Below are positions 3,181 through 41,278 of a DNA stretch of 42,566 nt, piece by piece. How positions within the stretch are numbered: the first letter of the stretch is position 1; every line of letters starts with the position of its first letter. The translations under genes were made by a program, and so were the position numbers. The stretch comes from a virus. The stretch is from IMG/VR virus record IMGVR_UViG_3300036766_000811, positions 1-42,566 of that record; one strand, given 5' to 3'. Under the pieces are notes generated by a model, which made no database searches, was not told where the DNA came from, and was given only the letters and a program-made list of their open reading frames with translations.

Positions 3181-3701
3181 TAGATCGTTGTTGTTGTACT
3201 AGTACTCGATGACGTTGAGCTTGATGTACTACTTGTTGTCCTAGTCGTTGATGTACTTCTAGTCGTAGAAGTTGTAGAGGTAGACGATGATGTTGTAGTA
3301 CTGGTTGTGGTACTAGAACTTGTTGATGACGAAGTTGTAGTTGTGGAAGAAGATGTTGTTGTGGTTGAAGTGGTTGTGTCGGTAGTTGAACTTGATGTAC
3401 TAGTGGTTGAGCTTGAAGTTGAGGTGGTTGATGTGCTGACTGTGGTACTAGAACTAGTTGAGCTACTAGTAGATGTGCTGGTAGTTGTAGTAGATGTGCT
3501 GGTTGTAGTACTAGTCGTAGACGTTAAATCTGATCCTCGTTTTTCACTACCACCACGTTTTGAAATTCCACCAACTACCTTAGAAAATACAGCATTTAAA
3601 GCATCAAAGATCTCACCATTTTTCCTGATGAAAGTAGCGGTTCGTCGTTGTACTCCTTCAAACCCTTGTATCGTGTATTTACCTTCTTGCTCTTCTGCCA
3701 T
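3180..3701 (-). CDS. Virion protein with mucin-like Thr/Ser tail
   Basis: Residues 1-58 form a basic, folded-looking head (VQRRTATFIRKNGEIFDALN). Residues 60-173 are almost only Thr and Ser, with a few Arg in a TTRSTSTT context. The protein ends in TTTTI directly at the stop. Such stretches are extended and are typical O-glycosylation substrates. Its position between the adaptor and the beta-propeller gene suggests that the head anchors it to the short tail while the Thr/Ser arm projects outward. The long Val/Glu/Asp-rich frame on the opposite strand is a composition shadow. Confidence 0.75.
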   Translation of the reverse strand: MAEEQEGKYTIQGFEGVQRRTATFIRKNGEIFDALNAVFSKVVGGISKRGGSEKRGSDLTSTTSTTTSTSTTTTSTSTSSSTSSSTTVSTSTTSTSSSTTSTSSSTTDTTTSTTTTSSSTTTTSSSTSSSTTTSTTTSSSTSTTSTTRSTSTTRTTSSTSSSTSSSTSTTTTI

Positions 3702-3711
3702 GTCATTCTAA

Positions 3712-4980
3712 TTAAAAAAAGTTCTCTTTATAGTAATCGTTACTATTATATGTGTAAGAATTTGTACGATAACGACGACCACCATGCCTACCTTTGTATC
3801 TAAATAAGCTCATTGGTTCACCGACTGGGGTAATGGTATCTTGTTTTAATAATAAATTAACGCCAGCATCTATATCAATAATTCTTCTTCCGGCTATTTC
3901 TTTACCAAAGAAAGCGTTGCTATATATCTGAGCAGTTGCTTCGTTGCCCTTGATCTGTTCAATCTTTGAGATAGCAAACGATTCTAGTAGAGATGGTAGT
4001 GGTACTAGGGTTGTGTCCTGAACGGTAGCTAGGTCAGGGATGTCTTTATAGTATCGGAGACTAAAAGTACCTAGGCCTGTTGTAAGTGGGGTGGGATACA
4101 CTCTGAGATAACCGGTAGTTGAACTACTATCAGCTTCTTGTAATGTATAGTGTGATACATAATTATCACTAGTTCGATTCTGGTCTACGTCTAATTGATC
4201 GAAGTCTTGCTCAGATAAATATTTGAGTGGGTAAGTAATGTTGTTCGAGCCACCATCATTATAATGGAAACGTACATCAGATAAATTATTTATGACACTT
4301 ACACCAGATGGTAGTGCATATAATTTCTGAGCTGCTACTGTAGTCAAAGTAACATCAGATACTTTCAACCAGCTCCAGTCAGTTTTAACACCTCTGATGA
4401 AATCTTGTGCCTCATTAAAGAAACGGATGATTGCTCTATCTCCTGCGATCCTACCATCCAAGTCGTTAGTAATCTGTCTTACGTTTCGTATCATAAAACC
4501 TACTTGACCCTTAGTGAATCCTGATCCTAGAACTGTTGGTGAGTACTCAGAATATTTAGCTGTTACATTATTGTAGAATCTAAATCTGTATTGATCGGTA
4601 TCTGCTCCTGCTGTGTGCCAGTAGGTAGTGTTTAATTTATCCCATTGAATAGGTGACTGGGTAATCAGGGCAAAAGTTCCGGATGATGATGTTCTCCACT
4701 CTATCTCAATAAAATTCCAAGGAGCTTTATATACTGGAGTGTCTTTCGGGTGTGCGAAATCAAGTGCTACTGCTGTAGTTAGAGTTGTCTTGCCAGTTAT
4801 GGCTGATAAAGTTTCAAGTTCAGTTAGTTCTTCTCCGGGTTCACCAAATACTAATAGGTCATTAGCTGTGAACGATACATTGGAAAGTACAGTTTGTGTT
4901 ACTCCACTAGAATAAGCCGTTGATAATAGAGTCCTAAAAGTATTCCTTAAATCTGGATTACCTACCGATACCTTTCTCGT
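3712..4980 (-). CDS. Head-tail adaptor-like protein; unusual start or frameshift
   Basis: The first ATG in this frame is at 4494 (260 aa, MIRNVRQITND), but the frame stays open to 4980 and the extra 162 codons are clearly protein-like (RKVSVGNPDLRNTF, later WNFIEIEWRTSSSGTF). The C-terminal part has features of short-tail head adaptors (RFFNEAQDFIRGVKTDW near its start, RYYKDIPDL later). No ATG, GTG or TTG occurs in the extension. Two starts are possible. One is the ACG at 4980, about seven bases after AGGGGGGTGA, which resembles a strong Shine-Dalgarno site. The other is a -1 shift on the G6 run at 4991-4996, which would join it to the HNH frame. A homopolymer error would look the same. Confidence 0.65.
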   Translation of the reverse strand, partial: TRKVSVGNPDLRNTFRTLLSTAYSSGVTQTVLSNVSFTANDLLVFGEPGEELTELETLSAITGKTTLTTAVALDFAHPKDTPVYKAPWNFIEIEWRTSSSGTFALITQSPIQWDKLNTTYWHTAGADTDQYRFRFYNNVTAKYSEYSPTVLGSGFTKGQVGFMIRNVRQITNDLDGRIAGDRAIIRFFNEAQDFIRGVKTDWSWLKVSDVTLTTVAAQKLYALPSGVSVINNLSDVRFHYNDGGSNNITYPLKYLSEQDFDQLDVDQNRTSDNYVSHYTLQEADSSSTTGYLRVYPTPLTTGLGTFSLRYYKDIPDLATVQDTTLVPLPSLLESFAISKIEQIKGNEATAQIYSNAFFGKEIAGRRIIDIDAGVNLLLKQDTITPVGEPMSLFRYKGRHGGRRYRTNSYTYNSNDYYKENFF

Positions 4981-4982
4981 GC

Positions 4983-5294
4983 CTAACTCACCCCCCTAAA
5001 ATGGGTAACATTTCTGCCACCCCATGTGTCTGTCATCATATGACAAGGTCTACACAAAGTTCTGCCATTATCGATTGCGAGTCTTAATTCTGGATATTGT
5101 GACCATGACTTAATATGGTCTACTTCTAAATACCCACCATGCTGATCGCACATCTGGCAAGTATAGTCATCTCTTTTAAAAACAGCTTCCCTCCACAATT
5201 TATATTCAAATGTTTTCATAGCTGCACATTTCCTACACCTTATGGATCGGTAATCCTTAAGTGAAGTCGCACAAGTTAAACAGTTAGGTAGCAT
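4983..5294 (-). CDS. HNH endonuclease with zinc-binding Cys pairs
   Basis: A 103-residue protein. Cys5/Cys8 with Cys20/Cys23 form an N-terminal zinc knuckle. Cys46/Cys49 and Cys81/Cys84 form the structural zinc site of an HNH fold, with Asp59-His60 (LEVDHI), Asn76 and His85 as probable active-site residues. Proteins of this kind are free-standing homing nucleases that nick DNA and spread into phage genomes. It sits between a Thr/Ser-tailed gene and the adaptor gene, and its last codons contain the only ribosome-binding-like sequence for the adaptor frame. An AT-rich stretch upstream (5295-5320) may hold its own promoter. Confidence 0.85.
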   Translation of the reverse strand: MLPNCLTCATSLKDYRSIRCRKCAAMKTFEYKLWREAVFKRDDYTCQMCDQHGGYLEVDHIKSWSQYPELRLAIDNGRTLCRPCHMMTDTWGGRNVTHFRGVS

Positions 5295-5320
5295 ACAAAT
5301 ATATTAACATACGAAGTTAG

Positions 5321-6130
5321 CTAATAGACAAGAGAGGCGTTTAAAAAGTAAGGCCATGTTTGTGTTGTGCTTGAAGAGGTTGATGTTAGAGATGTTGTAG
5401 TCGAGGTGCTAGTCGTTGTAGTAGAAGTTGAAGTTGTCGTGGTCGAAGTTGTAGTTGAAGTGGTGGAGGTTGAGCTTGTCGTTGATGTGGTACTCGTAGA
5501 TGAAGTAGTACTCGTTGTTGTGGATGTCGAACTTGAGGTTGAAGTAGTAGAGGTGGAACGAGTTGTCGAAGTTGTGCTCGTGGATCTAGTTGTCGAGGTA
5601 GTCGATGTTGAGCTTGTGGTGACAGTAGTCGACGTACTAGTTGTAGTGGTAGCTACGTTATTTGCTTCCGCACCTAAATCTATATCAGTAGCAGCATCAG
5701 CACCTAGCGTGGGGTTATTAGTCCAGCTTCCGGGGGTTCCCTCTGTCCAACTCTTTACATTTTGATTACTTACACTATTATTTGCGTTATTATCAATGTT
5801 GTAGGTACCATCTGCTACATATTGAACCGCTACCCAATAAGAAGTACCACTTGTTAGTGAAGAACCCGTAACTGTTAGATCTTTAATACCACTGAATAGG
5901 GATGCGTAAGTAGCAGATCCAGAAAATAACATTGTGCCTGGAACTCCAGCATTATCTGTGTAGACTGCTGCATAAACAGTTCCACTAACACCAAACTGTT
6001 CGCCAAAAGAAACCCTAATCTTATCAGGAGTAAAAGTACTACTGGGTGTATATGTACCAGCTCCAACTACACCATTTGCTCCGAAGTCAACGATAAATCC
6101 AGTTGCAGTTACATCTCCTAACTTAGCCAT
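5321..6130 (-). CDS. Surface protein: beta-sandwich head, Thr/Ser stalk, C-terminal cap
   Basis: Residues 1-160 look like a jelly-roll or carbohydrate-binding-type sandwich (SFGEQFGVSGTVYAAVYTD, then TSGTSYWVAVQYVADGTY). Residues 161-255 are nearly pure Thr/Ser with a few TTRST units. The last 14 residues form a short cap, TQTWPYFLNASLVY. The same TQT-aromatic-Pro-aromatic cap ends the next two upstream genes. The fold suggests a fibre or decoration protein at the virion surface, and the stalk is a plausible glycan carrier. There is no enzymatic motif. Confidence 0.75.
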   Translation of the reverse strand: MAKLGDVTATGFIVDFGANGVVGAGTYTPSSTFTPDKIRVSFGEQFGVSGTVYAAVYTDNAGVPGTMLFSGSATYASLFSGIKDLTVTGSSLTSGTSYWVAVQYVADGTYNIDNNANNSVSNQNVKSWTEGTPGSWTNNPTLGADAATDIDLGAEANNVATTTTSTSTTVTTSSTSTTSTTRSTSTTSTTRSTSTTSTSSSTSTTTSTTSSTSTTSTTSSTSTTSTTTSTTTTSTSTTTTSTSTTTSLTSTSSSTTQTWPYFLNASLVY

Positions 6131-7447
6131 TTAAAATCCTTCCTCCAAAGCCAAAGTAACATCCGCAGTAACAGTGGTATCTGAATCATCATTAATGACT
6201 CTTATTTTATATGGAAATGTTTGAGTGGTACTAGAGCTAGTACTGCTAGATGTTGAAGTGGTGGTGGTCGACGTACTGGTGGTAGTGGTGGATGAACTGG
6301 TTGTCGTCGAGGTAGTACTTGTGGATCTAGTTGTGGAAGTTGTTGTCGAGGTAGTCGATGTTGAGCTTGACGTACTTGTGGTCGTTGATGTGGTGGTCGA
6401 GGTTGTAGAGGTAGACGTTGTCGTCGTAGTGCTAGTGGTGGTTGAGGTCGTACTCGTACTCGATGAAGTTGTCGTTGAAGTACTTGTGGTAGTTGAGGTC
6501 GTCGACGTGGTAGTTGAGGTGGTACTTGTGGAGGTGGAGGTCGAGGTAGTCGTGCTAGTGGTACTTGTAGAACTGGTTGTCGAAGTTGTAGTTGAAGTGG
6601 TGGAGGTTGAGCTTGTTGTAGAGGTAGTGCTGGTGGATGACGATGTGGATGTCGTCGTACTTGTGGTACTCGTAGAGCTTGATGTGGTCGTTGATGTGGT
6701 ACTTGTGGATCTAGTTGTCGAAGTTGACGTTGTGGTGGTACTCGTTGATGTTGACGTGGTGGTGGTACTCGTTGAGGTTGACGTGGTTGTCGAAGTCGTG
6801 GAGGTCGAGGTGCTCGAAGTTGTACTCGTTGTAGTGGCAGCAGGAGCTTTAAATGAAGCAAGTATATGGCCATAAGTGTCAGAACCTCCGGCTGTCCATG
6901 TCATAGCCTTTGCTCCAGCACTAACTTGTAAAAAATACTGATTGCCTGTATTCCAAGTACCTTCATCTATTGCAAATAGACCAGTTTGACCAGCAGTTGA
7001 AGCATTGGTGTTTTCATGAGTTAGGCCAGAAACAATTAATTCTCCATCGGCTCCAGTTGTTACAGAGTCGCTGACATTTTGGATAGTCCCAGTTCCGCCA
7101 CCAATCTGATCTAAAGGACTTGATTGTGATACTCCTGTGAAAGAAGCTACATAAAAATGCCAAGCACCAGTACCAGTAATATCTACTGAAAGAGTGTTAG
7201 CACCGGTGGTTGGTGCAACAAGATACCAGATCTCAGCCCACATATTAACTGCATCATTAATAGCGTGAGCCTTTGTTAAATTAACAGAAGCATATGTAGG
7301 GGAAGCTACTACAGTTCTAAGATTTGTTCTTCCAAGAACATAAAGAACAAGAAGTAAATTCGTACCTGTACAAGTATGGGAAACAGTAAATGGTCCTGTA
7401 CCAGATTGAGCCAAACCATCTGTACTTGCATCTAATACTATAGCCAT
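6131..7447 (-). CDS. Surface protein: beta-sandwich head, long Thr/Ser stalk, cap
   Basis: A 438-residue protein. Residues 1-203 are an all-beta domain with features shared by the products at 8816 and 10220: a hydrophobic LLLVLYVLG strand, an aromatic WYLV strand, and FYVASFTGV aligning with IVREYSGV in the paralogues. Residues 205-407 are about 200 Thr/Ser positions with rare Arg. Residues 408-438 form an acidic cap starting TQTFPYKIRVIND. This is most likely a tail- or head-attached fibre that displays the stalk. It is one of eight Thr/Ser-rich proteins in the window. Confidence 0.75.
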   Translation of the reverse strand: MAIVLDASTDGLAQSGTGPFTVSHTCTGTNLLLVLYVLGRTNLRTVVASPTYASVNLTKAHAINDAVNMWAEIWYLVAPTTGANTLSVDITGTGAWHFYVASFTGVSQSSPLDQIGGGTGTIQNVSDSVTTGADGELIVSGLTHENTNASTAGQTGLFAIDEGTWNTGNQYFLQVSAGAKAMTWTAGGSDTYGHILASFKAPAATTTSTTSSTSTSTTSTTTSTSTSTTTTSTSTSTTTTSTSTTRSTSTTSTTTSSSTSTTSTTTSTSSSTSTTSTTSSTSTTSTTTSTTSSTSTTSTTTSTSTSTSTTSTTTSTTSTTTSTSTTTSSSTSTTSTTTSTTTTTSTSTTSTTTSTTTSTSSSTSTTSTTTSTTRSTSTTSTTTSSSTTTTSTSTTTTSTSSSTSSSTTQTFPYKIRVINDDSDTTVTADVTLALEEGF

Positions 7448-8779
7448 TTAATCGTTTTGTTCCTCCTCATATATTATTGTAGCTGTTTCATCGTCTTCAA
7501 CCGTAATCTCAGATGCTATATTAGTATTTTCAATATTGGTTTGTTCTTCCTCAACAACATTAATGTCTACACTATCTGTCTGGGGTACTAGAGTATTAAT
7601 ATCATCGGATTCAGCAGATAAGGTCATTGGCTCTACTTGACCAACAATTGTCCCAAGAGACTCATTATCAACAATTATTTCAAAAGGGAAAGTTTGTGTC
7701 GTGCTTGTGCTAGAGCTAGAAGATGTTGATGTAGAAGTGCTTGTTGATGAAGTGGTAGATGTCGTCGTAGAAGTAGTGCTGGTGGAACTTGACGTACTCG
7801 AAGTAGTAGAGGTTGTTGATGTTGATGAAGTCGTACTTGTGGTTGTGCTGGTCGTGCTAGTTGAGGTTGTGGTTGTAGTGCTGGTCGTTGTTGAGGTCGT
7901 GCTTGTAGAACTAGACGTGCTTGAAGTTGTACTTGTTGTTGACGTGCTTGTGGATGTGGATGTCGTTGTTGAGGTTGTACTGGTAGAACTAGTCGTAGAA
8001 GAGGTCGTTGAGGTGGTTGAAGTAGAAGAGGTCGTACTCGTTGATGTAGTTGTTGTGCTAGTAGAAGTCGTCGTTGAGGTGGAAGTCGTCGTAGAAGTTG
8101 TAGATGTGCTCGTGGTCGTTGATGTGGTACTCGTGCTGGTACTGGTAGTGGTAGACGTTGTAGACGTGCTCGTGGTTGTCGAAGTCGTGGAGGTGGATGT
8201 TGATGAAGTCGTCGAAGTGGTACTGGTACTTGTAGAAGTCGTCGTTGAGGTAGTGCTAGTACTTGTCGATGAAGTAGTTGAGGTGGTGCTGGTACTGGTG
8301 CTGGTTGAAGTTGTTGTCGAGGTAGTTGAGGTACTTGTTGAAGATGTAGTAGAAGTCGTTGAAGTAGATGTGGTTGTGGAAGTTGTGCTAGTGGAGGTCG
8401 AGGTCGTGGTGGTACTAGAACTGGTTGAAGTAGAGGTTGTTGTCGTACTCGTAGACGAAGAGGTGCTTGTTGTGGTGCTCGTTGTGGAGGTAGACGATGT
8501 AGTACTTGTGGTTGTCGATGTGGTAGAGGTACTCGTCGTGGTAGAAGTTGTTGAAGTCGAGCTTGTGGTGGAGGTGGTAGAGGTACTCGTAGAAGTACTT
8601 GTCGTGGTTGTAGACGTGGATGTACTAGAACTTGTAGTGGTCGAAGTTGTGGATGTGGAAGTGGAAGTCGATGTGCTAGTCGTGGTTGTACTAGTCGAAG
8701 TTGAACTCGTTGTCGAAGTTGTAGTTAAAACAACAAACTTATCCCATGGAGGATCGGAGCGTAGTGGTCTAAAGGACAT
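7448..8779 (-). CDS. Giant mucin-like Thr/Ser protein with acidic C-terminal domain
   Basis: The most extreme of the set. Only 18 residues (MSFRPLRSDPPWDKFVVL) precede about 340 residues of Thr and Ser. An 83-residue cap follows, beginning TQTFPFEIIVDNE and ending in Glu/Asp-rich sequence (EEEQND). With no folded N-terminal domain, attachment to the virion must come from the short N-terminus or the cap. All four Thr codons and all six Ser codons appear mixed in the stalk, so the DNA repeat is far less regular than the protein. The ribosome binding site is weak and follows a 36-base gap. Confidence 0.75.
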   Translation of the reverse strand: MSFRPLRSDPPWDKFVVLTTTSTTSSTSTSTTTTSTSTSTSTSTTSTTTSSSTSTSTTTTSTSTSTSTTSTTSSTSTTSTTTSTSTTSTTTSTTSSTSTTSTTTSTSSSTSTTTTSTSTSSSTTTTSTSTSTTSTTTSTSTTSTTSSTSTSTTSTTTSTSTSTSTTSTTSSTSTSTTSTTTSTSTSTTSTTSSTSTSTTSTTTSTSTTSTTTSTSTSTTSTTTSTSTTSTTTSTSTTTSTSTTTTSTSTTSSTSTTSTTSSTTSSTSTTSTTTSTSTSTSTTSTTSSTSSSTSTTSTTTSTTTTTSTSTTSTTTSTTSSTSTTSTTSSTSSSTSTTSTTTSTTSSTSTSTSTSSSSSTSTTQTFPFEIIVDNESLGTIVGQVEPMTLSAESDDINTLVPQTDSVDINVVEEEQTNIENTNIASEITVEDDETATIIYEEEQND

Positions 8780-18330: not shown

Positions 18331-19295
18331 GCTCGTGCCAATCCTTCTCTAAAGAATTCTCTCCATGCTGGAACGTGTTTTTCCCAAGTCCAGTTCTTTA
18401 AAACTTCTTCTCTACCTCGTATACCCATCTCTTTACGTTTGTTCTTGTTATCTCGTAAGTCGATAATAGCCTCTCGTACTTTTTTAGCCACTTCATCAGT
18501 ATTATTCATATAATACGTTCTATCTCCAGGTATCATTACTCCTGCACCAGCATCGGTAAACAAATGGTCTATTCCACTATCTGTAGCTATTACCGGCACA
18601 CCACAGGCTGCTGCTTCCTGAGTAGGAAAAGAGTAAGCTGGGTCTTGATCCATTCTTAAAAGTATATCCATACGGTTATAAATATTCGGTATACCAGTCC
18701 ATCTCTTATCTCCAGTAACAACATGCTTTCTCATTACATCAGCATTATAATCAGTCGGTGTGCCACCATCATTTACCCAACTGTGGGGAAATAACATAAT
18801 CCTGACACCAGGTATATCTACTAATTGAGAAATCACGGGTCCCACCATATGTCTCACATTGGCGTGGTTTCCTATGTACCCTACATGCAAGAGATCATCT
18901 TCTCTGGCAAGTGGATAAGGTGCAAACAAATTAGTGTCTACTCCAAACCTTAGACTATGATACGGAATCCCTATCTGCTTACAACTATCTTCTGTAATTG
19001 GTGTTGTCGCCCCAACTACTGCAACATCTTTATACCTACCTTCGGCTGGACAATAGAAAACAGTAGCTACTTTGTGAGCATATTTGTCCGGATCACAATG
19101 CCATGCTTGTGCCCACAGAGGCCAAAGTAAATCATAGTCATCTACATTACGATTAAATGGACTTGTGCCATCTCCTGTAGGCATAGCAATCTCCATAAAA
19201 AAGTCTTCTCCTAGATAACGCATCAAGTACTCACAATGAGCCTCTACATACCACCCAGCTTGGGGTGGGATCATCAAGATTTTCTTTTTAGACAT
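18327..19295 (-). CDS. GT-B fold (family 4-like) glycosyltransferase
   Basis: A 322-residue protein. The N-terminal domain begins KKKILMIPPQAGWYVEAHCE. The C-terminal domain has the donor-binding features DPAYSFPTQEAAACGVPVIA and TDSG, matching the E-x7-E region of GT4 enzymes. It would use a nucleotide sugar and retain its anomeric configuration. It is soluble, with no signal peptide. It overlaps the methyltransferase upstream by 22 bases. Confidence 0.8.
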   Translation of the reverse strand: MSKKKILMIPPQAGWYVEAHCEYLMRYLGEDFFMEIAMPTGDGTSPFNRNVDDYDLLWPLWAQAWHCDPDKYAHKVATVFYCPAEGRYKDVAVVGATTPITEDSCKQIGIPYHSLRFGVDTNLFAPYPLAREDDLLHVGYIGNHANVRHMVGPVISQLVDIPGVRIMLFPHSWVNDGGTPTDYNADVMRKHVVTGDKRWTGIPNIYNRMDILLRMDQDPAYSFPTQEAAACGVPVIATDSGIDHLFTDAGAGVMIPGDRTYYMNNTDEVAKKVREAIIDLRDNKNKRKEMGIRGREEVLKNWTWEKHVPAWREFFREGLARA

Positions 19296-30285: not shown

Positions 30286-30612
30286 CTAGGTATAAAGTGG
30301 TATGCCTGCTAAACAAATCTCAGAGTTTGTATTACCACCTTGATCTATTACAGCATAAACACCATTTTTGAAAAAGAGAGGGTTGGGAAATACCTGACAA
30401 TCATCATAAGCTGTTGAAGAATCCAATACCCATCTGAGATTTTGTTTCGTTCCATTACCATTATCATAGAAGGAAACGTGAGCTGCTCCACCACCTGATG
30501 TCAGTTTTAAAGCTGTAATCTCAATCGAATGATTAGTGAACTGAAAAGCCTGTCCATCTGCTGTTGGTTGCCAGACTGCTTGTGGTAGTGCGTATGTTTG
30601 TTTAACTGACAT
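30286..30612 (-). CDS. Small virion surface protein
   Basis: A 108-residue all-beta protein (SIEITALKLTSGGGAAHVSF, FFKNGVYAVIDQGGN). It has no stalk and no enzymatic motif. Proteins of this size and make-up often decorate heads or fibres. It is translationally coupled to the preceding Thr/Ser gene (TAATG). Family not recognised. Confidence 0.6.
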   Translation of the reverse strand: MSVKQTYALPQAVWQPTADGQAFQFTNHSIEITALKLTSGGGAAHVSFYDNGNGTKQNLRWVLDSSTAYDDCQVFPNPLFFKNGVYAVIDQGGNTNSEICLAGIPLYT

Positions 30613-30950
30613 TATAGTGTTGTTGTTGTTGATGTCGACGTACTGCTAGTCGTGCTGGTTGATGATGACGTAGTCGTGCTGGTAGTAGTCGTGGTTGTGC
30701 TGGTCGTGGTTGTAGTGGTTGAAGTACTAGTCGTGGTTGTCGTAAGTAATGTTGCATAGTACCAAGCTCCTGAAATCGGATTAGTTGCAGAAGGAGACGG
30801 ATCATCAAAAACGTAAAGTCTATTATTGGTTGAATCAATCCACCATTCACCATCTCTAGGTGCTGTTGGGAACACACCAGTAGTAATAACCCTCTTACTG
30901 CCAATAAGGTTACTAAATTTTGTTCCGATGAAAGGTCCTTTAGTTGCCAT
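30612..30950 (-). CDS. Short virion protein with Thr/Ser tail (paralogue 1)
   Basis: A 112-residue protein. A short domain of about 68 residues (FIGTKFSNLIGSKRVITTG, DGEWWIDSTNNRLYVF) precedes about 44 residues of Thr/Ser ending in TTTTL. The core pattern, DGE/GDE then DSTN then Tyr/Trp strands, recurs in the next two genes. All three are joined by one-base overlaps. They lie directly downstream of the capsid gene, so they are candidates for head decoration or head fibres. Confidence 0.7.
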   Translation of the reverse strand: MATKGPFIGTKFSNLIGSKRVITTGVFPTAPRDGEWWIDSTNNRLYVFDDPSPSATNPISGAWYYATLLTTTTTSTSTTTTTTSTTTTTTSTTTSSSTSTTSSTSTSTTTTL

Positions 30951-31237
30951 TATATTGTTGTTGTTGTACTCGTACTTGACGATGTACTGGTTGAACTCGA
31001 TGTCGATGTGCTCGTTGATGTCGTGCTGGTACTCGTACTACTACTAGTTGATGTACTGGTACTCGTAGAAGTACTAGTAAATACAGCACCTAACCAATAA
31101 GTTCCAGTCCAAACATACCATCCTTTATTGGTTGAATCCCAAAATTCGTCTCCAACTAAAGGATCTACAGGTTGAAGTGTAACCGTTCTTATAGCTCCTA
31201 CTATGTTCGTTATATGTGTTCCTGTTTCTCTAGCCAT
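30950..31237 (-). CDS. Short virion protein with Thr/Ser tail (paralogue 2)
   Basis: A 95-residue protein. Head domain of about 53 residues (HITNIVGAIRTVTLQ, DPLVGDEFWDSTNKGWYVWT), then about 42 residues of Thr/Ser ending TTTTI. It resembles its two neighbours in the GDE-x-W-DSTN-x-Y/W pattern. The tail is a possible carrier for glycan, as in the longer stalks. Confidence 0.7.
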   Translation of the reverse strand: MARETGTHITNIVGAIRTVTLQPVDPLVGDEFWDSTNKGWYVWTGTYWLGAVFTSTSTSTSTSTSSSTSTSTTSTSTSTSSSTSTSSSTSTTTTI

Positions 31238-31617
31238 TATACTGTTGTACTTGTTGTTGTGCTCGTTGTTGACGTTGACGATGTAGTACTGGTGCTCGTG
31301 GTCGTAGTACTGGTTGTAGTCGTTGTTGTAGATGTCGTAGTCGTAGTTGTAGATGTCGTAGTGCTAGTCGTACTGGTAGTGGTACTAGTCGTAGATGTTG
31401 ACGATGAAGTTGACGTTGACGAACTGGTCGTTGTACTTGTTGAACTTCTTTGTGAAATCTGAAATCCTCTCCAATTAAGACCATCAAAACGTAGATATCC
31501 TTGAATGGTCGTACTGTTAATAACTGTTGTATTAAGATATTCATCGCCAGCTACCGGATTAGTTGGATCCGTTGATCTGCGTTCAAGACCTCCTATCAAT
31601 GCTGAAAAGTTACTCAC
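31237..31617 (-). CDS. Short virion protein with Thr/Ser tail (paralogue 3)
   Basis: A 126-residue protein. Head domain of about 56 residues (MSNFSALIGGLERRST, DPTNPVAGDEYLNTT, YLRFDGLNWRGF), then about 70 residues of Thr/Ser ending STTV. It is the first of three coupled paralogues after the shared promoter-like repeat at 31635-31655. The increasing tail lengths (42, 44, 70) suggest repeat expansion. Confidence 0.7.
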   Translation of the reverse strand: MSNFSALIGGLERRSTDPTNPVAGDEYLNTTVINSTTIQGYLRFDGLNWRGFQISQRSSTSTTTSSSTSTSSSTSTTSTTTSTTSTTTSTTTTTTSTTTTTTSTTTTSTSTTSSTSTTSTTTSTTV

Positions 31618-40223: not shown

Positions 40224-40670
40224 CTATAAGTTACTTAGTATGTCTTCTATCTCACTACTAGTTGTCTTATGCATATCAATGAGTTCTTGATATGTTTTAC
40301 TATTTAATATAACTCTTATACTCTTAGATTCTACCTTCTTTGTTGTTGTTGGATATCCCTTTAATAGCTTGATAAGTTCTATATTAGCTTTTAATACAGT
40401 GTCACTTGAGATTTTGTCCGGTTGCCATTCATTCGCTATCTCTTTTAACCTATCTGTTTGCCCTTCTAAGGTGATGTTATTCTTTTTAAGTGCTTGGTCT
40501 ATTGCTTCAACAATCATCGGGTTTCGCATATTGCGGTTTGCTACAGTTTTAGCAGTACCAATCGAAGTGGTGTTGTAAGCGTGAAGTGCGGACTGTGTTT
40601 GGTTACTAGTTTGTAAATAGTTATTAACAAACTTTTTTTGTTTAATAGATAATCTTTTTAACTTAGGCAT
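40224..40670 (-). CDS. terS: Terminase small subunit
   Basis: A 148-residue protein. The N-terminal segment MPKLKRLSIKQKKFVNNYLQ and TSNQTQSALHAYNTTS is the helix-turn-helix of Terminase_2-type small subunits (KQ-x-F-V-x-Y-L...N-x-T-x-A-A-x-x-A-G pattern). RNPMIVEAIDQALKKNNIT follows, then an oligomerisation helix. It recognises the packaging site and brings DNA to large terminase. It has no good ribosome binding site of its own; a three-codon leader frame with GAGGA ends six bases upstream. Confidence 0.85.
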   Translation of the reverse strand: MPKLKRLSIKQKKFVNNYLQTSNQTQSALHAYNTTSIGTAKTVANRNMRNPMIVEAIDQALKKNNITLEGQTDRLKEIANEWQPDKISSDTVLKANIELIKLLKGYPTTTKKVESKSIRVILNSKTYQELIDMHKTTSSEIEDILSNL

Positions 40671-40870
40671 ACATCTATATTACCATTTCCTCAGGCATTC
40701 TGGAAGATTAGCTTAAATACCCCCCTCTCGCACTCGTGAGTTGTCCGCACTGTGCATTTTGCCACTATCTAACAGCTATCGGCCCACTGTGTCTCAAGTG
40801 CTATAATCCAAATCTATTTAATTGTTAAAGACCATTTCCTCAGTATAATCTGTCGATTGAGCTTAAATCT
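40671..40870 (-). promoter_or_regulatory. Leader region with two related repeats and micro-frames
   Basis: Two related stretches, 40682-40718 and 40831-40868, share ACCATTTCCTCAG at one end and AGCTTAAAT at the other (plus strand). On the minus strand both read TGAGGAAATGGT, a ribosome-binding site next to an ATG. The first codes M-V-I-stop and ends close to the small-terminase start, so it could help reinitiation; the second codes M-V-F-N-N-stop. No protein-length gene is seen. Confidence 0.35.
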
Positions 40871-41059
40871 TCAAAATGACAATTGTATTTGTTTCTTTTG
40901 AAGTCTTTTTGATGGTTCTTCTGGAATATCTAAGTTTGGAGTGAATGGTAAATATCTAGTACCACAATTAATACAATTACCAATTAAATGTTTTGTGTGA
41001 TTAAACTGTATTTGATATCTCAAGTTATTTACTTCCTTTTTGCAAACATTACATTCCAT
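40871..41059 (-). CDS. Small zinc-ribbon protein behind a structured leader
   Basis: A 62-residue protein. Cys3/Cys6 (MECNVCKKE) and Cys29/Cys32 (GNCINCGTRY) form a two-pair zinc site, with a Lys/Gln-rich tail. It is a common shape for small phage regulators. It starts immediately after a hairpin and a U6 tract (41061-41118), so its expression is probably controlled at the RNA level. The next genes downstream are the terminase block. Function not known. Confidence 0.6.
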   Translation of the reverse strand: MECNVCKKEVNNLRYQIQFNHTKHLIGNCINCGTRYLPFTPNLDIPEEPSKRLQKKQIQLSF

Positions 41060-41128
41060 TAAAAAACCCTACTTTGAGCGTTGACATTGTGAACCGATTT
41101 ACAACGCCCAAAATAGGGCTGTTCACAA
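41060..41128 (-). promoter_or_regulatory. Candidate leader RNA with terminator/antiterminator or pseudoknot
   Basis: In RNA order: TTGTGAAC (41128-41121, A), CCCTA (41118-41114) and GCGTTG (41107-41102, together B), GTTCACAA (41094-41087, A'), CAACGC (41083-41078) and TAGGG (41071-41067, together B'), then TTTTTT (41066-41061). The B/B' hairpin with the U6 tract looks like an intrinsic terminator; A/A' would break it. The whole fits exactly between a promoter (41136-41164) and the ATG at 41059. Regulation by an antiterminator, protein or small molecule is inference. Confidence 0.5.
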
Positions 41129-41134
41129 CAACTA

Positions 41135-41163
41135 TTTATACCATAAATGTCAAGTTTTTACAA
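41135..41163 (-). promoter_or_regulatory. Minus-strand promoter with extended -10
   Basis: On the minus strand TTGTAA, a 17-base spacer and TATAAA (41140-41135) form a sigma-70-type promoter; TGG directly before TATAAA makes an extended -10. The start of the RNA would be near 41128, the first base of the leader structure. TTGACA at 41154-41149 is too close to serve as -35. Confidence 0.5.
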
Positions 41164-41278
41164 GATAGGCACAAAATACCAAGTCACCAAGTCGATTGTA
41201 ACGGCTTAAAAAAAACCGGCTGTACATTGTATCAAGTATCCCAAAGTATACTATTAGCTATAATACTTATATACTAAT

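Follow-up and report, generated by a model that had tools for sequence, protein, structure and literature searches.

A candidate bistable leader attenuator that recurs with unrelated sequences in uncultivated phages

Results

Layout of the leader and its genomic context

The window, that is, the whole stretch of 42,566 nucleotides analysed here (IMG/VR virus record IMGVR_UViG_3300036766_000811), carries on its minus strand a promoter-like site, a 69-nt leader that ends at position 41060, and a gene for a zinc-ribbon-like protein that opens with the ATG at 41059, followed by the gene for the terminase small subunit (Table 1). The leader unit as a whole occupies positions 41163-41057. Two interleaved helices, with their arms in the order A-B-A'-B', and a U6 tract lie between the promoter and the ATG, and direct reading of the sequence, together with an RNA fold of -35.5 kcal/mol for 41164-41040 (z = -4.16; matched by 0 of 200 shuffles), confirms this description and its coordinates as given in the original prediction. 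The promoter scored 10.5 against a background mean of 7.7 (sd 1.0), and the transcript would likely start at G41129 or T41128. Helix A:A' consists of nine pairs (eight Watson-Crick and one G.U) and helix B:B' of 18 pairs, three of them G.U, which enclose a loop of 18 nt; TTGTGAAC is present in exactly two copies in the window, both of them in the leader. Hairpin B had escaped a simple terminator scan because that scan permits loops of 8 nt at most.

Table 1. Features of the leader unit and the genes that follow it in the window
Feature	Position	Strand	Remarks
-35 hexamer TTGTAA	41158..41163	(-)	sequence; spacer to -10 of 17 nt
Extended -10 TGG-TATAAA	41135..41143	(-)	sequence
Arm A, GTTGTGAAC	41121..41129	(-)	5' strand of antiterminator-like helix; partner 41094-41086
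Local hairpin GCCC/GGGC	41106..41119	(-)	in B 5' arm, 41119-41116 with 41109-41106; computed fold of RNA cut after A'
Arm B, GCCCTATTTTGGGCGTTG	41102..41119	(-)	5' strand of terminator-like hairpin; partner 41083-41066
Arm A', GTTCACAAT	41086..41094	(-)	inside loop of terminator-like hairpin
Arm B', CAACGCTCAAAGTAGGGT	41066..41083	(-)	3' strand of terminator-like hairpin
U6 tract	41061..41066	(-)	sequence; would double as spacer from Shine-Dalgarno-like sequence to AUG
62-aa zinc-ribbon-like protein	40871..41059	(-)	two CxxC pairs; ATG one base past U tract
Terminase small subunit	40224..40670	(-)	next gene downstream; PF03592, E 8e-11

Only 1 nt separates A from B, and A' lies within the loop of B; therefore, A:A' and complete B:B' should be mutually exclusive. 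It had been proposed that the second helix would either disrupt the hairpin or form a pseudoknot with it; the first part agrees with this mutual disruption, and a static full pseudoknot can be set aside on geometric grounds since a 1-nt linker cannot bridge a complete B helix of 18 bp. The geometry thus points to a leader that would act as a switch, without a standing pseudoknot.

The zinc-ribbon-like protein has no match in PHROGs or Pfam and shares 38% identity with the protein behind one of two similar leaders in another phage contig (L081, below). Between its gene and the terminase small subunit gene, a segment of the form TTTAAGCT...TGAGGAAATGGT occurs twice (40820-40868 and 40680-40722, minus strand) and is possibly a packaging or processing signal. 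Elsewhere in the window, positions 7448-8779 (minus strand) encode a 443-aa protein in which more than 300 residues are almost all Thr and Ser, similar coding repeats are found in neighbouring genes (repeat families at 3186-8687 and 30601-31400), and a glycosyltransferase and a DegT-type aminotransferase are encoded as well, which suggests heavily glycosylated virion proteins.

Compensatory changes in close relatives

A terminase-based search for relatives returned loci L002 to L010. The element is found at the same position as in the window, upstream of the terminase small subunit, in L002 and L005, which are the nearest relatives to include this region; L003 begins too close to the terminase small subunit gene to include the region, and L004 has a different gene in the short stretch covered there. 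In an alignment of the window, L002 and L005 that was built by hand on the structure, and is to that extent biased towards it, helix A shows two-sided changes in seven of 11 pairs (broken cells, 2/33) and helix B four two-sided plus four one-sided changes (broken cells, 1/54). The original prediction, which named a lack of covariation in relatives as one half of its refuting condition, thus gains from compensatory changes in both helices. In another pair of phages (L070 and L118), both B arms match at all 19 bases, while A and A' differ yet still pair (five two-sided pairs). Covariation and the recurrence described below indicate selection for the alternative helix A:A', which is incompatible with the terminator.

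A sequence-pattern search for the leader returned only L002 and L005 among viral contigs, and 36 loci among genome contigs, which were used as controls. Named relatives in the phage collection gave neither a DNA match to the window nor a portal match, and no prophage was found by terminase in genome contigs.

Recurrence of the layout in other phages

Overall, the A-B-A'-B'-U layout was found at 18 sites in 17 related uncultivated phage contigs, with A and B sequences that are unrelated between sites, a linker of 0-5 nt between A and B, and a B helix of 16-26 bp. The search relied on a descriptor that fixed no sequence and asked for A, a short linker, a B helix with 12 pairs or more, A' inside its loop, and a U tract. 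Applied to the 69 initial loci, it scored highest at the three known sites and, unexpectedly, at four sites in more distant phages (L006, L028, L029 and L031). A stricter descriptor, run after about 80 relatives had been added through the portal protein, recovered 15 distinct family sites in phage contigs at scores of 26-33, adding L127, L070, L105, L118, two sites in L081, L093, L110 and L124, vs. one match at a score of 23 in shuffled sequence and one at 23 in unrelated genome loci; it is important to note that the descriptors were tuned after the window had been seen, which makes these enrichment figures descriptive rather than a formal test. A match in L119 (score 24) looks like chance. 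The site in L107 has a lower descriptor score, and that in L101 was detected by a fold-based scan.

The latter scan sought hairpins followed by at least U5 and a start codon within 3 nt. Within the phage group, the flank 5' of the hairpin is complementary to the loop at the 13 most stable hairpins and at the window site. These 14 sites all have 13 or more outer pairs, a U tract of U5 or longer and a start codon next to it, and their match of flank to loop beats at least 97% of shuffled loops (p at most 0.03). Run on controls totalling 0.46 Mb (36 bacterial loci, lambda, PA11, CRP-4, MEP402 and P4), the same scan found no hairpin of at least 13 outer pairs with a loop-complementary 5' flank. 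Two leaders are present in a single contig, L081, at (+)19185-19249 and (-)5907-5980, and their arm A sequences are unrelated.

Promoters, start codons and downstream genes

A promoter score of at least 9.5 within 45 nt upstream of arm A was found at 10/18 sites vs. 6.7% of random positions; by eye, L006 and L029 have a promoter-like match further upstream, and L127 is without a clear promoter. In five leaders (window, L002, L005, L070 and L118), transcription is predicted to start no more than 2 nt from where arm A begins. A TTGACA or TTGACT hexamer is also present within the spacer, 7-8 nt upstream of the -10, in the window (41153-41148), L002, L070, L118, L107 and L029. Further, L006 (1544-1592) and L029 (3376-3465) have a short hairpin between promoter and arm A, followed by CACTCCTACG(A/G)(C/T)AAG ... 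GGAGTAA; this core is common to these two distant phages, absent from every other fetched phage, and possibly a second RNA element or sensor. L070 has another hairpin with a U tract, at 7893-7965, closely behind the first element and ahead of the gene that lies upstream of terminase; L118 is similar.

At 14 of the 18 sites, the U tract is followed at a distance of 0-3 nt by a start codon (ATG or GTG), the exceptions being L070, L118, L110 and L028. The G-rich end of B' in the window, AGTAGGG, is a weak Shine-Dalgarno-like sequence; good ones are found at the end of B' in L127 (TAAGGAGGTC-TTTTT-ATATG), L081 (AGAGGAGC-TTTTTTA-ATG) and L002 (CTAAGGGGC-TTTTTT-ATG), and around half of the sites have a weak match. 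In this arrangement, B:B' would mask the ribosome site besides terminating transcription.

What follows the U tract varies, even among the window, L002 and L005 (the zinc-ribbon-like gene, a 48-aa basic protein, and an 18-codon frame that is maybe nothing, respectively). An HNH endonuclease (PF01844) is behind the leader in L029, a primase-polymerase (PF09250) in L127, zinc-ribbon-like proteins in the window, L081 and L107 (and as the second gene in L031), and small orphan genes at other sites; L005, L070 and L118 are without a clear gene immediately after the element. Terminase genes lie downstream of the element in the window, L002 and L005, and the element points away from the terminase operon in L028 and L031. 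These varied downstream genes, together with the copies facing away from terminase, indicate that the leader is portable and without late-gene specificity. Consequently, the earlier proposal that it decides whether late genes are read does not hold in general. We also rejected autoregulation by the zinc-ribbon protein acting on its own leader: the leaders precede unrelated genes, and in L163 (2966-3277) the window gene has a homologue with no leader, which means that gene and leader are independent modules.

Computed folding and selection on the RNA strand

A DNA palindrome would yield about equal numbers of G.U and A.C combinations. In a search that treated both alike, a hand tally gave 43 G.U vs. 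two A.C in the B helices, a count restricted to the 13 recognisable sites; the symmetric scan is noisy below the real sites. Therefore, selection on this RNA strand is favoured over a DNA palindrome. The counts for helix A are small and run in the same direction.

Minimum-energy folding, which leaves out pseudoknots and real kinetics, gave the A:A' fold at 17/17 sites tested when the RNA was cut after A', and the B:B' fold at 17/17 at full length; that is, A:A' is predicted to form first and B:B' to win once the leader is complete. The local GCCC/GGGC hairpin arises, in these computations, within the A:A' form of the window leader. With 12 nt taken as hidden in the polymerase, A:A' stays the best fold in the window until the polymerase is at the end of the U tract. 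Holding A unpaired made B:B' win earlier at 16 of the 17 sites, by a median of 4 nt (at least 5 nt at eight sites and 0-3 nt at eight others). The kinetic argument suggested by these models is good for leaders like that of the window and weak at some other sites.

Discussion

We consider it probable that the element is a bistable leader attenuator, an undescribed form of on/off RNA control whose structure is well supported and whose function we propose here. The promoter-like site, both helices with their covariation, the recurrence of the layout and the fusion of U tract to start codon can all be read from the sequences. The leader also has several of the features by which intrinsic-terminator attenuators are recognised, i.e., an upstream promoter-like site and an untranslated leader, a stable hairpin with a U tract, and an incompatible helix that has been kept. 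Hence, the attenuator-like layout recognised at the outset stands on firm ground, with compensatory pairing in both helices and the same topology built from unrelated sequence in many phages. No description of the A-B-A'-B'-U layout was found in the literature searched, which comprised open papers only.

Under the attenuator model, the transcript would begin at arm A, and A would pair first with A' as the RNA emerges (with the small local hairpin inside), preventing full pairing of the B 5' arm with B'. The much stronger B:B' hairpin could displace A:A' once B' has emerged, which would place a terminator-like hairpin right on the U tract and bury the G-rich strand by the start codon. If B:B' formed in time, transcription would stop at the U tract; if it formed late, the message would be read through with its ribosome site hidden; and if A:A' were maintained, the polymerase would pass and the ribosome site would be open. 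We infer that termination and readthrough do take place and that something biases the choice between them. An RNA-only trigger (e.g., how fast the RNA folds, or base pairing between A or A' and a further copy of the leader) appears likelier than a small ligand because complementarity, not sequence, is conserved.

A small-molecule riboswitch was rejected, and with it the riboswitch-like character initially suggested for the leader: no Rfam family reached the gathering score, whether in the window or in the six related loci searched (where matches at E up to 10 were at chance level only), and no aptamer or aptamer-like sequence is common to sites whose A and B sequences are unrelated. Ribosome-mediated (leader-peptide) attenuation was likewise rejected, as no shared or conserved short ORF over the switching arms was seen in leaders read by eye; only L006, the one site with a clear Shine-Dalgarno sequence and ATG-AAT-TAG at arm A, would fit.

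It is also conceivable, if rather unlikely, that the switch works in a special way, by autoregulation in trans. That is, the A' loop of a terminated leader of ~65 nt would pair with arm A as the next transcript emerges, block A:A' in cis and promote termination, each leader being a private feedback sensor. The conservation of complementarity alone and the unrelated arm A sequences of the two L081 leaders favour this possibility, as does the fact that a terminated RNA would expose both A, as an unpaired tail, and A', within the loop, and precedents exist in the P4 CI RNA and Gifsy-1 IsrK (PMC4825925). However, a purely cis-acting switch predicts the same sequence pattern, and the short RNA is itself hypothetical. 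Improbable, in our view, is that the element is a small-RNA gene whose transcript usually stops at the U tract, with the short structured RNA as its product and the ATG incidental. The promoter-like site, the complete terminator-like hairpin, and the three sites lacking a clear gene right after the element would fit such a gene, but a start codon 0-3 nt past the U tract at most sites, several of which open convincing genes (HNH, primase-polymerase, zinc ribbon), would then be coincidental, and the putative RNA has no conserved sequence.

We give little credence to polymerase-modifying antitermination of the lambda Q or HK022 put kind, in which the terminator would keep the operon silent until the polymerase is modified, by a factor or by the 5' RNA itself. 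While the element does open the late operon in the window, L002 and L005, several copies are off late operons, this mechanism requires a conserved recruitment sequence whereas no sequence is shared by all sites, and the A:A' complementarity would be left unexplained. Finally, a DNA-level element, with the overlapping inverted repeats as an operator or a replication/packaging site, is very improbable: the repeats do adjoin terminase genes, but the G.U excess in B, the strand-specific U tract, and a promoter and start codon in register all speak against it.

If the attenuator works as we propose, terminator, antiterminator, ribosome site and start codon are merged into 70-100 nt, and the element would give little-known phages from the environment a means of gating accessory and boundary genes. 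An element conserved only in its pairing segments would be missed by RNA-family searches that rely on shared sequence, and the leader offers a compact natural example for those who build RNA switches. A bolder reading, which we regard as unlikely, is that the leaders form a widespread, undescribed class of phage riboregulators defined by topology alone (A-B-A'-B'-U-AUG), each terminated leader acting in trans, through tail-loop pairing, to repress the locus that made it; such pairing, if true, would amount to a private feedback switch for each phage gene.

Among known systems, H-type pseudoknots have the same A-B-A'-B' order of arms, whereas here a linker of a few nucleotides next to a B helix of the observed length makes simultaneous full pairing sterically implausible. 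In riboswitch platforms that sequester the Shine-Dalgarno sequence, as here, the 3' strand of a hairpin covers the ribosome-binding region; unlike them, the present leaders have no aptamer or conserved sensor sequence, and the covering hairpin is also terminator-like. In phage P4 (CI RNA and SeqA) and Gifsy-1 (IsrK), leader transcripts end early, and the short products base-pair with leader sequences complementary to them (PMC4825925). Each of these is a system of its own, with an RNA that is processed or acts separately, in contrast to the many sequence-unrelated copies of one topology described here, for which a role in trans is hypothetical; no Rfam family, including P4 CI / C4 antisense RNA, reached threshold. 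Closest in design are the pT181-type antisense attenuators and Bacillus leaders, which share the promoter just upstream, the terminator hairpin with its U tract, and the alternative upstream helix that prevents it. The present leaders differ from them in that no antisense RNA or protein is known, the U tract runs directly into the start codon, and the antiterminator partner A' sits within the terminator's own loop.
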